From: Chryseobacterium sp. LJ668
GTDB lineage: Bacteria; Bacteroidota; Bacteroidia; Flavobacteriales; Weeksellaceae
Assembly (NCBI RefSeq): GCF_019613955.1
Contig: NZ_CP080443.1
Coordinates: 1,798,001 to 1,862,000 of the forward strand
DNA: 64,000 bases
Direction of reading: 5' to 3'
A program made the position numbers and the translations under genes. Under the pieces are notes generated by a model. That model ran no database searches. It saw nothing but the letters and a program-made list of their open reading frames with translations, and had not been told where the DNA came from. Below, piece by piece: positions 47,327 through 50,678 of the stretch (the stretch's first letter is position 1; each line of letters starts with the position of its first letter).

Positions 47327-49213
47327 TTATTCAAGATTCTGCAATAATTCCAACACCTTCATCATATCAATTCCTTTACCCAAAACAGGTTTAAACAAAT
47401 CTCCTTTTTCTTTAATTCTCCCCAAAGCATTATGAATATTAAAATCTGTCGGTTTCATACCTGGTTTTACCTCATCCCATTCTAAAGGCATGGAAACGGA
47501 AGCACCTTCTTTTGGTCTTATACTGTAGACACTTGCTAAAGTCTGACCGGTTCTGTTTTGAAGATAATCTAAATAGATTTTCTTATCGTCTCTTTTTTGC
47601 AGACTTCTTTCTAGAGTGGTAATTTTCGGTAGTTTTTCATTGACATGTTTCATTAAAATGTGAGCGAAATCTTTAACTTGGTCAAAATCGTATTTCCCAC
47701 CCATCGGAATATAAACATGAATTCCCGTACTTCCCGAAGTTTTACAATATCCTTTGATTTTAACTGAATTTAAAACCTCATTCACTTGTAAAGCAGTTTC
47801 TATCACATGATCAAAACTGTTTTTCTTCGAAGGATCAAGATCTAAAACCATAAAATCCGGATGATCAAGATCAGGAAGCGAACTATTCCAGGGATTCAGA
47901 TCAATACAACCTAAATTATTCAGATAAGCCAACGTCGCCTTGTCATTACAGTAAATATAATCGATGTATTTATCATTTGATTCCGAGTAAACCTGCGTGG
48001 TTTTGATCCAATCCGGAATATTGTCACTCGCATCTTTCTGATAGAAACTTTGCTCTTCAATTCCGTTAGGAAAACGGTTTAAAGACAATGGGCGGTTTTT
48101 CAAATGTGGCAAAATATAATCCGCAACAGATTGATAATACTCAACTACGTCGCCTTTTGTAACATCGTCTTTTGGGAAATAAATTTTATCCTGATTTGTC
48201 AATTTTACTTTATGCTTGTTCAATGTGATTTCCTTTTCTTTTTCAGAAATTTCAGTTTTTTTTAATGGTGTTTTGGCTTTCATTTCTTTTGATTTTTCGT
48301 TAATTTGATTCATCTCAATCATCGAGCCTTCGGTTTCTTCAGGATTTTTATCTTCCCGGATGGCTACAAAAACAGGATGGCGGAAAATTCCGTCGTTGGT
48401 AATTTCAGAGTATTTTATTTCGCAGACCAATTCGGGTTTTACCCAAGTTACAGGCATATTAGTTTTTGGTTTCTTTTCAAATGGAGAAGTTTTTACGACC
48501 AATTTCAATAACCTTTGATGAAGAAGATTCAAGGATTCATTATTAAATCCCGTTCCTGTATGTCCGGAATAAATCAGTTCCCCATCAATATATTTTCCCA
48601 AAATCAATGCTCCAAAACCTTCTCTTGAACCGCGTGGTTCAGTAAATCCACAAATAATAACTTCTTCCGTGTTGGTAAATTTTATTTTAAGCCAATCTGA
48701 ATTTCTGCTGTTTTCAATATATAAACTGTCTGCTTTTTTGGCAATCATTCCTTCAAGTTCCATTTTTTTCATCTGATTAAAAAAATCGATGCCTTTTTCG
48801 GGAATATGATCACAATATTTGATGATGTCGGTTTCAATTAAAGCTTCTTTTAAAAGCTCTTTTCTCTGTATTAAAGGTAGTTCTTCGGTCGAATGCCCAT
48901 TGAGCCAAAGCAGATCGAAAACCTGATATGTCAAAGCCAGGTCAGGATTGTCACCTATTTGTTGCAGGAGTTGGAAACTAGGCTTCCCGTGTTCATCATA
49001 TGCGACAATTTCCCCATCCAAAATCATTTTGTATTTTTGGTGACTGAAATCATCGACGACTTTATCGAATTTTGACAGGAAAGAAATCCCGTTTCGGGAA
49101 TAAAATAGAGGTTGTTTATTAGAAAGATCAGCCACGGCTCTGTAGCCGTCCCATTTTATTTCAAAAACCCAGTCTTCGTCATCAAAAGCTTCTTCAGAAA
49201 GCCTGGCCAACAT
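47327..49213 (-). CDS. ligD: DNA ligase D, ligase and polymerase domains (separate frame)
   Basis: As an open frame from ATG at 49213 this encodes 628 residues. The ATP-dependent ligase domain has nucleotidyl-acceptor Lys20 in FEIKWDGYRAVADL, then DGEIVAYD near 66, EGMIAKKADS near 155 and KIKF near 177. The C-terminal LigD primase/polymerase domain, after a Lys/Glu-rich linker (310-345), starts KVKLTNQDKIYFP and has the metal-binding LDLDPSKKNS and GSTGIHVYIPMG. The frame stays open upstream of 49213 and runs through IKPMLA, the usual start of the LigD ligase domain, so the ATG is probably internal. It joins the phosphoesterase ORF by a -1 shift at 49320-49328. Confidence 0.9.
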   Translation of the reverse strand: MLARLSEEAFDDEDWVFEIKWDGYRAVADLSNKQPLFYSRNGISFLSKFDKVVDDFSHQKYKMILDGEIVAYDEHGKPSFQLLQQIGDNPDLALTYQVFDLLWLNGHSTEELPLIQRKELLKEALIETDIIKYCDHIPEKGIDFFNQMKKMELEGMIAKKADSLYIENSRNSDWLKIKFTNTEEVIICGFTEPRGSREGFGALILGKYIDGELIYSGHTGTGFNNESLNLLHQRLLKLVVKTSPFEKKPKTNMPVTWVKPELVCEIKYSEITNDGIFRHPVFVAIREDKNPEETEGSMIEMNQINEKSKEMKAKTPLKKTEISEKEKEITLNKHKVKLTNQDKIYFPKDDVTKGDVVEYYQSVADYILPHLKNRPLSLNRFPNGIEEQSFYQKDASDNIPDWIKTTQVYSESNDKYIDYIYCNDKATLAYLNNLGCIDLNPWNSSLPDLDHPDFMVLDLDPSKKNSFDHVIETALQVNEVLNSVKIKGYCKTSGSTGIHVYIPMGGKYDFDQVKDFAHILMKHVNEKLPKITTLERSLQKRDDKKIYLDYLQNRTGQTLASVYSIRPKEGASVSMPLEWDEVKPGMKPTDFNIHNALGRIKEKGDLFKPVLGKGIDMMKVLELLQNLE

Positions 49214-49290
49214 CGGTTTGATGAATGTCTCAAGTTTCTTTTCGTCTACTAAAGAATTGAATCTTTGAAATTTTGGTTTCGTTTCTGAAG

Positions 49291-49893
49291 TTATGACTTC
49301 TTTTTGGTGCTTTTTAGGCTTTTTTTTTCCTCTAAAAATTTTGTAACCTGAGAATTTTTGGCTGTTTTTTCTTCGGCGTCATAATTTTCTTCGGCAAATT
49401 TATCTTTATGTTTAATTAACAACCATGAATTTCCTTCAGTATTTTTCATTTTTACTAAAGCAAATTCACCCTTGAGTTTTTTGCCATGTAAAATGAATTT
49501 TAATGAACCTGCTTTTAGTTCTTTCAGTAATTCTTTTTCGTCCGAAAGTTTGCTTGTATCGTCCAACGGTTCGTATGTTCCGCTGTCCCAGACTTCCACT
49601 TGTCCGGCTCCGTAATTTCCTTCAGGAATATTTCCTTCAAAATCTTTGTAGTCGTAAGGATGATCTTCAACCATCATCGCAAGACGTTTGTCTTTCGGGT
49701 CTAATGACGGGCCTTTCGGAACGGCCCAGCTTTTCAAAACACCTTCCATTTCCAATCTGAAATCATAATGAAGACGTGACGCAGCATGTCTTTGAATCAC
49801 AAAAATAAGTTTGTCTTCACTTTTTTTTGTTTTTCCTTTGGGTTCGGTGGTTTCATCGAACTTTCGTTTTTCGTTATAATCTTTTAGTGGCAT
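49291..49893 (-). CDS. ligD: LigD 3'-phosphoesterase domain (frame-split from ligase)
   Basis: This 200-residue ORF is the N-terminal phosphoesterase domain of LigD, which trims 3'-phosphate and 3'-ribonucleotide ends before ligation. The signature is FVIQRHAASRLHYDFRLEMEGVLKSWAVPKGPSLDP near residue 29, with MMVEDHPYDYKDFEGNIPEGNYGAGQVEVWDSG near 70; metal-binding His and Asp are present. It ends in a Lys-rich tail (EEKKSLKSTKKKS) where the reading frame leaves the LigD fusion. It starts by overlapping the ku stop by one base (TAATG), a coupled pair. The stop at 49291 is probably not the true protein end. Confidence 0.88.
   Translation of the reverse strand: MPLKDYNEKRKFDETTEPKGKTKKSEDKLIFVIQRHAASRLHYDFRLEMEGVLKSWAVPKGPSLDPKDKRLAMMVEDHPYDYKDFEGNIPEGNYGAGQVEVWDSGTYEPLDDTSKLSDEKELLKELKAGSLKFILHGKKLKGEFALVKMKNTEGNSWLLIKHKDKFAEENYDAEEKTAKNSQVTKFLEEKKSLKSTKKKS
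49320..49328 (-). other. A9 homopolymer at the ligD frame junction
   Basis: Nine consecutive A on the coding (minus) strand, read GAA-AAA-AAA-AGC in the phosphoesterase frame. A -1 shift on A-AAA-AAA, or one extra A, continues as AAG-CCT in the ligase frame and gives an 855-residue fusion. Confidence 0.85.
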
Positions 49894-50678
49894 TACGATG
49901 CATTTTTAGATTTCGGACTATGCAAGCTGGCTTTCAACTGTGCCATAAGGTCTATCACCTTGCCCTGTTTTGCAGGTTCTGCTTTTTTAGCTTTTACACC
50001 TTTTCCTTTTGCTTTTTGTTTGATGATTTTTAGTAAAGATTCAGAATAAGTATCTTGATACATTTCAGGATCAAATTCCTGCGAAAGCTGTTCGATAAGG
50101 CTCACTGCCATTTTTAGTTCGGCAGGTTTTGGAGGTTTTTTAGCAGGAATTTTTAAATCTTTATAATCTCTTATTTCCTGAGAAAAACGTAATCTGTTCA
50201 AAACTAAAACTTCATCATTGTAAGGTCTGATCATCCCAATCGCTTCACTTTCACGAAGCACAAAAGTTCCAACGCCCACCATTTTTGTTTGGGACAAAGC
50301 TTTTAATAAAAGTCTGTAGGCATTTTCTCCATTCTTTTGAGGCTCCAGGAAATAAGGGTTTTCAAAATAAACGCTATCAACTTCAATCTCTTTTACGAAT
50401 TGATCGATTGAAAGTATTTTGCTTTTTTCAGGACTTGCTGCTTGGTAATCTTCGTCTTCAAGAATGATGTATTTATCTTCCATGAGATATCCTTTTACAA
50501 TATTTTCCCACTTGACTTCTTTGCCTGTTTTTTCGTTCACTCTTTTAAATTTAATGTTCGAAAAATCAGACTTGTCGAGCATATCCAAATCGAGTTTGCT
50601 GGTTTCTACAGCAGAATAAATTTTTATAGGAATATTCACTAATCCAAAACCAATGGCACCGTTCCAAATTGCTTTCAT
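49893..50678 (-). CDS. ku: Ku protein (non-homologous end joining)
   Basis: This 261-residue bacterial Ku has the family start MKAIWNGAIGFGLVNIPIKIYSAVE, the core VNEKTGKEVKWENIVKGYLMEDKYIILEDEDY, ENPYFLEPQKNGENAYRLLLKALSQTKMVGVGTFVLRESE and a basic C-terminal tail (KQKAKGKGVKAKKAEPAKQ) used to bind and recruit LigD. Homodimeric Ku rings hold double-strand break ends. The stop overlaps the ligD start by one base, as expected for a two-gene NHEJ system. A 117-bp gap upstream, before the 727-residue gene, shows no clear regulatory signal. Confidence 0.95.
   Translation of the reverse strand: MKAIWNGAIGFGLVNIPIKIYSAVETSKLDLDMLDKSDFSNIKFKRVNEKTGKEVKWENIVKGYLMEDKYIILEDEDYQAASPEKSKILSIDQFVKEIEVDSVYFENPYFLEPQKNGENAYRLLLKALSQTKMVGVGTFVLRESEAIGMIRPYNDEVLVLNRLRFSQEIRDYKDLKIPAKKPPKPAELKMAVSLIEQLSQEFDPEMYQDTYSESLLKIIKQKAKGKGVKAKKAEPAKQGKVIDLMAQLKASLHSPKSKNAS

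Follow-up and report, generated by a model that had tools for sequence, protein, structure and literature searches.

The window analyzed here, a stretch of 64,000 nucleotides from Chryseobacterium sp. LJ668 (contig NZ_CP080443.1, positions 1,798,001 to 1,862,000), contains a ligD gene that lies on the minus strand beside ku and is divided over two reading frames. All three domains of the DNA repair enzyme LigD, namely the 3′-phosphoesterase (PE), the ATP-dependent ligase, and the primase-polymerase (Prim-Pol), were found with Pfam and NCBIfam models, the first in one open reading frame (ORF) and the other two in a ligase-polymerase (LIG-POL) ORF, and the two frames meet at a run of nine A residues (A9). 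Comparison with relatives suggests that this tract is probably a conserved slippery site, at which slippage of RNA polymerase would yield mostly the free PE and a minority of full LigD. The features of the locus are the following, in the order of transcription.

49893..50678, minus strand: ku, the first gene of the unit, 261 aa (ORF; Pfam Ku, 1.9e-46; Ku_bact).
49291..49893, minus strand: LigD PE ORF, 200 aa, the product of the unshifted frame (LigD_N, 9.5e-46; TIGR02777).
49329..49331, minus strand: AGG directly 5′ of the A9 tract, invariant in 132 distinct split loci.
49320..49328, minus strand: A9 putative slippery tract, GAA AAA AAA AGC in the PE frame (sequence; nine T on the plus strand).
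49291..49293, minus strand: PE-frame stop codon TAA, located 3′ of the tract at a distance of 26 bases (sequence).
47327..49378, minus strand: ligase frame over its whole open length, 683 codons, overlapping the PE frame across the tract (ORF reading).
49214..49288, minus strand: ligase-frame linker from the PE stop to the first ligase Met (ratio of nonsynonymous to synonymous substitution rates, dN/dS, 0.05; start-codon scan).
47327..49213, minus strand: LIG-POL ORF from its first Met, 628 aa (Pfam PF01068, PF04679, and PF21686; TIGR02776/02778/02779).
About 49189-48347, minus strand: ATP-dependent ligase domain of LIG-POL (Pfam/NCBIfam).
About 48160-47393, minus strand: Prim-Pol domain of LIG-POL (Pfam/NCBIfam).

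The stop codon of ku and the start codon of the PE ORF share one base (TAATG), and the genes are therefore considered one unit, ku-PE-LIG-POL. As in bacterial LigD systems with Ku, all three domains are present, in the same order and beside ku; unlike in those systems, they do not form one open frame. The PE-LIG-POL order is that of the Pseudomonas type. The PE matches five solved PE sequences, which jointly span residues 2–184 (PDB comparison). The first-pass annotation, made from the letters of this DNA, had placed the end of the PE ORF at 49291, a ligase frame open upstream of its ATG, and an A9 run at 49320–49328 with the codon reading given above, all of which was confirmed from the sequence, the ligase frame being open to 49378. 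It had further proposed that a −1 slip restores a LigD of normal size. The arithmetic holds, since 855 residues result from the 191 codons that end with the second AAA plus 664 codons in the ligase frame, and fused relatives in the same family have open frames of 845–887 aa.

Recurrence of the split was followed at 270 loci, of which the junction was read in 268, the other two having no PE match and being left unused. Species-level genomes contributed 187 loci (the window's own duplicate excluded), and 136 fall in the gene clade of the window, a few of these being second copies within one genome; for L151–L270, the clade assignment rests on approximately 67 ligase residues each. Within the gene clade, the PE and LIG-POL frames are offset by −1 over A9 or A10 in 130 of the 136 loci, comprising 127 with A9 in the same codon phase and 3 with A10, where a base beside the tract has been substituted to A. 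A separate set of 80 named loci, mostly from Chryseobacterium, contains 74 split genes (72 with A9 and 2 with A10) and 6 fused ones (5 with A10 and 1 with A9); ligD is fused in C. edaphi, which at 91% identity is the nearest of the named relatives. The alignment to relatives that the first-pass annotation had recommended thus finds the split at A9 recurring across the genus, and its contrary outcome, separate genes with no conserved A run, is the opposite of what was found, the tract being conserved. At the level of whole genomes, 144 of 173 genomes of the genus match the LigD ligase-polymerase at E up to 1e-100, with an open frame of approximately 650–693 residues in nearly all rows among the matches listed. 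In genus g22 of the same family, the open frame is 650–651 residues in all 7 genomes with a match, and in an order-wide sample, a match occurs in 84 of 395 genomes. Edaphocola flava (L098) carries a Chryseobacterium-like ligD, 70% identical, in which the split is again at A9 and another codon precedes the tract; as the record bears the name of another genus, this copy may reflect transfer or contamination.

The ligase frame ahead of its first Met was analyzed in 132 distinct gene-clade loci with a −1 offset and a run of at least nine As; L098 was excluded by hand, and no locus with a −1 offset was dropped for a missing run. The Met is located 72–84 bases 3′ of the PE stop in these loci. For the stretch between the two, which would be non-coding if a separate LIG-POL gene began at the Met, dN/dS, obtained from 556 pairs at 5–15% PE divergence, is 0.05 in the ligase frame (bootstrap 0.04–0.06) and 3.1 and 1.8 in the other two frames; the values for comparison are 0.04 in the PE domain, 0.09 in the ligase N-terminus, and 0.29 in the dual-coded overlap. 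Because dN/dS is low in the ligase frame only, the stretch appears to be translated in that frame. No ATG, GTG, or TTG occurs upstream of the Met in the ligase frame in 105 of the 132 loci, and the start-codon scan of the linker at 49214..49288 in LJ668 likewise found none; an ATG precedes the ligase Met in none of the 132 loci, and a start codon lies at or before the PE stop in one. Since protein-level constraint extends over the pre-Met stretch, in which most loci have no start codon, the ligase frame must, on this sequence evidence, usually be entered from the PE frame. A hidden internal start 3′ of GAGG-A9 was also considered and was rejected, as no conserved start codon follows it.

The nucleotides of the tract are conserved beyond what the encoded residues show elsewhere. 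In the PE alignment, 6 of 145 conserved codon columns show a single codon throughout, and four of the six are GAG-GAA-AAA-AAA at the tract, the others being column 193 (AAA, three codons after it) and column 3 (AAA); conserved Glu and Lys codons vary elsewhere in the gene. Across the 132 distinct split loci, the codon that precedes the GAA of the tract always ends in G, being GAG at 130 loci and AAG and CAG at one each, and in L149 an AAA stands in place of GAA after that codon. GAA constitutes 81% of the Glu codons in the genome. Runs were counted in 1.264 Mb of the 3.47-Mb genome, window included, with 1.10 Mb of predicted coding sequence: of 152 Lys-Lys-Lys, 10 are encoded by A9 where 86.8 would be expected, and the sense strand of the predicted coding sequence holds 28 A9 runs and no A10 or longer. 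Judged by these counts and by codon usage, the tract itself is under selection, and A9 is strongly avoided elsewhere in the genome. Several of the 28 A9 sites fall in the first eight codons of genes. Only 4 runs of A8 or longer in the same 1.264 Mb mark a switch between two long frames of different phase, one closing and the other opening there, and the layout at ligD is thus more than a chance occurrence; the other three were rejected as instances of the same layout, an ordinary ATG of the next gene lying within about 80 bases after the run.

Outside the gene clade of the window, a second clade of ligD (approximately 62% identity) also carries a tract. In its ligase frame, a TAA made up of the T preceding the run and the first two As of the run sets the beginning of the open stretch precisely at the tract, and dN/dS of the pre-Met stretch is 0.08 (13 loci). 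Among close relatives in this clade, A9, A10, and A11 are found with three different frame relations. The Flavobacterium sample contributes two ligD genes of this second, Chryseobacterium-like type, one split at A12 beside ku (L361, genome G625) and the other fused with A11 (L355, genome G551); the AGT-A(n) context is common to both.

In Flavobacterium, ligD is mostly one frame. From 24 fused loci taken (L331–L353 and L355), 23 were read, the motif not being found in L353. An A9 occupies the same place in the linker in 14 of the 23, in 13 as A_AAA_AAA_AAG and in one ending in AAC (L331–L350); among the remaining loci, one has an A9 elsewhere in the linker and one has an A11. The codon before these 14 A9 tracts codes for five different residues and always ends in A, an ending carried by 19–35% of the codons for these residues in the same genes. 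This A belongs to the definition by which an A9 in that phase is counted, yet none of the 23 loci shows the same Lys codons without it. Furthermore, the last codon of the tract is AAG in 13 of the 14 loci, although AAA makes up 90% of the Lys codons there, and a −1 shift in the fused loci would terminate within 4–14 codons. This pattern suggests that the Flavobacterium A9 works as the same device in reverse, LigD being its default product; it is not universal. Short PE-only frames are also found in Flavobacterium (L354, L356–L360, and related; open frames of 186–241 aa). Among 10 genomes with such a frame, 8 show neither Ku nor a LigD ligase domain at the thresholds used, and the other two have the ligD split at A12 (G625) and a separate LigD frame of 901 residues (G567). 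A further Flavobacterium locus (L255, genome G494) has a split ligD whose junction lacks a long A run and which may be decayed or an error.

The variation of run length, phase, and frame bears on the mechanism. The distinct split junctions comprise A9 in phase 1 (129), A10 in phase 0 (15), A10 in phase 2 (3), A10 in phase 1 (2), and A9 in phase 0 (2), in addition to one A9 in phase 2, at a locus with a second A9, and one A8 and one A9 of other offset. Split loci thus have A9 or A10 in all three codon phases, and the length is not tied to the phase that ribosomes need. On a gene tree of 175 rows (FastTree), the split or fused state changes at least 14 times (5 in the clade of the window and 8 in the rest), where 14 is a parsimony minimum on a tree that has many weak branches and from which the broken second copy of one genome (L228) was excluded by hand; a run of at least nine As is retained in 171 of the 175 rows, split and fused alike. 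Such flips of frame would be tolerable under RNA polymerase slippage, by which As can be added or dropped, but not under a directional −1 ribosomal shift. Slippage by RNA polymerase is therefore preferred over directional frameshifting, because the state flips while the tract is kept at nine or more. A similar argument appears in a passage of the large GeneTack survey, in which a non-conserved direction in transposase families is taken as pointing to slippage (PMC3711429).

Several observations weigh against the reading of the tract as a site of polymerase slippage. The heptamer A_AAA_AAA is in phase at every A9 or A10 split site, as inferred from lengths and phases, and the invariant AGG beside the tract, which is absent in other clades, might be a ribosome signal. 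A TTG or GTG precedes the ligase Met, as a possible start, in 27 of the 132 loci. One locus of the gene clade (L122, genome G102) has only an A8, with another offset. Five of the 136 gene-clade loci are fused, 3 of them with A10 and 2 by small downstream indels with A9 retained, and the split is therefore not indispensable. Finally, 7 of the 23 fused Flavobacterium loci have no run of nine or more in the linker. In L122, a second A8 lies four bases after the first, and the PE stop lies between the two.

The in-phase heptamer and the AGG would be accounted for by a programmed −1 ribosomal frameshift of the E. coli dnaX type, in which transcription is accurate and ribosomes slipping on A_AAA_AAA make the full LigD; the AGG could then serve as a Shine-Dalgarno-like stimulator, and the tract of Flavobacterium, mostly A_AAA_AAA_AAG, contains the classical slippery heptamer as well. 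This explanation deserves attention but is considered unlikely. The AGG abuts the tract, whereas the Shine-Dalgarno element of dnaX lies about 10 bases upstream of the slippery site, and no consensus RNA structure or conserved pairs were found near the tract by RNAalifold in 24 diverse loci. In two of the three phases, a run of A7–A8 would suffice for ribosomes, whereas all distinct split loci except one have at least nine As. Moreover, the direction is not always −1, as L122, L223, and L361 have other offsets and would need a shift in another direction. Flavobacterium johnsoniae is reported to frameshift poorly at prfB and to initiate only rarely by way of Shine-Dalgarno sites (passages of PMC12421855). 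Sequence comparison thus leans to polymerase slippage, well ahead of ribosomal frameshifting.

The remaining alternatives dispense with recoding. In a true gene fission, LIG-POL would initiate by itself, at Met 49213 or at a weak start slightly before it, in coupling with the termination of PE; the 27 loci with a TTG or GTG would permit it, and public annotation mostly gives LIG-POL as a DNA ligase D of 615–645 aa, with a PE domain in 1 of the best 120 proteins listed. However, the pre-Met segment is constrained like the PE domain and is without a start codon at 105 of 132 loci, the Met lies 72–84 bases after the PE stop, and the invariant tract is left unexplained. An own start was accordingly rejected for most loci on the grounds of pre-Met constraint and missing start codons, and fission as a whole is very improbable. 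The PDB comparison of the ligase frame is neutral on this point, because the alignments begin next to the Met: the nearest ligase-domain chains align from query residues 27–30 and others from 33–44, the Met being residue 31. Replication slippage, by which mutation between A9 and A10 would toggle a phase-variable ligD between cells, is suggested by run lengths that vary from A8 to A12 between species, each represented by one genome, but 127 of the 136 gene-clade loci are split at A9 with no mixture, and fused A10 is rare (3/136) even though back mutation would be easy; it is likewise judged to be a slim prospect. An assembly or sequencing error is a natural suspicion in a homopolymer and could not have been excluded from a single genome alone; it becomes negligible because the identical A9 and offset occur in more than 100 separate assemblies. 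Among the explanations listed in the first-pass annotation, sequencing error and gene fission are thus set aside, and transcriptional slippage is favored over −1 frameshifting as the recoding mechanism. Its suggestion that PE alone and full LigD are both made from the gene is supported.

According to the polymerase slippage model, RNA polymerase would add or drop As on the tract at 49320–49328. The unslipped mRNA would be read to the stop at 49291 and yield the free 3′-phosphoesterase as the major product, and a minority of mRNAs with the tract altered by +1 or −2 would yield the full three-domain LigD of approximately 855 residues. The free PE would trim 3′ ends and LigD would act with Ku in end joining. 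In a design like that of dnaX, one gene would give a short and a long product. We infer that the slipping machine is RNA polymerase and not the ribosome, and the ratio and the usefulness of both products are predicted in the same manner. A free PE product is plausible, because the PE is a complete domain with solved structures and also occurs as a separate short frame in Flavobacterium. The slip would also set the ratio of Ku to LigD, because Ku adjoins the PE in all 80 named loci, from a 1-base overlap to 2 bases apart, with the 1-base overlap in 63.

More broadly, the PE-LIG linker of Flavobacteriales may be an ancient dual-output slippery site of at least nine As, whose default product has flipped by lineage, being LigD in many Flavobacterium and PE in Chryseobacterium; this wider proposal is tentative, its chances being put slightly below even. 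If it is true, a run-length switch would set the ratio of Ku, PE, and LigD and thereby the processing of broken ends. Databases mostly give the LigD of Chryseobacterium as a shortened ligase; if the polymerase slippage model holds, about 227 residues are missing from such entries, recoding produces the real enzyme, and programmed slippage would enter bacterial double-strand-break repair. The model would also agree with a role of PE apart from LigD, for which the 8 Flavobacterium genomes (of 10) that have a short PE frame and, at the thresholds used, neither Ku nor a LigD ligase domain may be compared. The site is replicated naturally in well over 100 genomes, with differences in run length (A8–A12), phase, and frame, which makes the choice between ribosome and RNA polymerase directly testable.

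Slippage at Shigella mxiE/spa has been reported from few species. Transcriptional slippage in bacterial genes is already known from dnaX, mxiE, tssM, and insertion sequence (IS) elements, and in ligD it is apparently new, since no report of LigD recoding was found in the open-access literature searched. To our knowledge, there is no earlier case of recoding in bacterial end joining. A close parallel is dnaX of Thermus thermophilus, which according to passages of PMC1088944 slips at an A9 to 50% and, as predicted for ligD, gives a short and a long product from an A9 within the coding sequence of a multi-domain DNA enzyme. The polarity differs, as the unslipped dnaX mRNA gives the long product (same passages) and the unslipped ligD mRNA would give the short one, and the LigD products would be separate enzymes and not subunits of one clamp loader. 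A/T runs are avoided from length nine in a large share of bacterial genomes, as stated in the same article (PMC1088944). In tssM1 of Citrobacter rodentium, an A11 gives about 20% slippage and both protein forms are used (passages of PMC4256274); there and in Shigella mxiE, the full-length proteins need slippage, as proposed here for ligD (passages of PMC4256274 and PMC1088944). The polarity of tssM3 in Y. pseudotuberculosis is reversed, comparable to fused versus split ligD (passage of PMC4256274). The tssM slippage is known from few species in that account (PMC4256274), whereas the ligD site lies in a DNA repair gene and is common to well over 100 species-level genomes. It is the kind of conserved poly-A frame transition sought in the GeneTack recoding clusters, although a term search of the main text of that survey did not find LigD (PMC3711429). 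Similarly, neither "ligase" nor "LigD" occurs in the searched part of PMC5009743 (300,000 of its 475,107 characters).

Several genomes additionally have a distant second copy of ligD, about 900 aa long, which is contained in one frame and has no tract (L229 and L230 among them).

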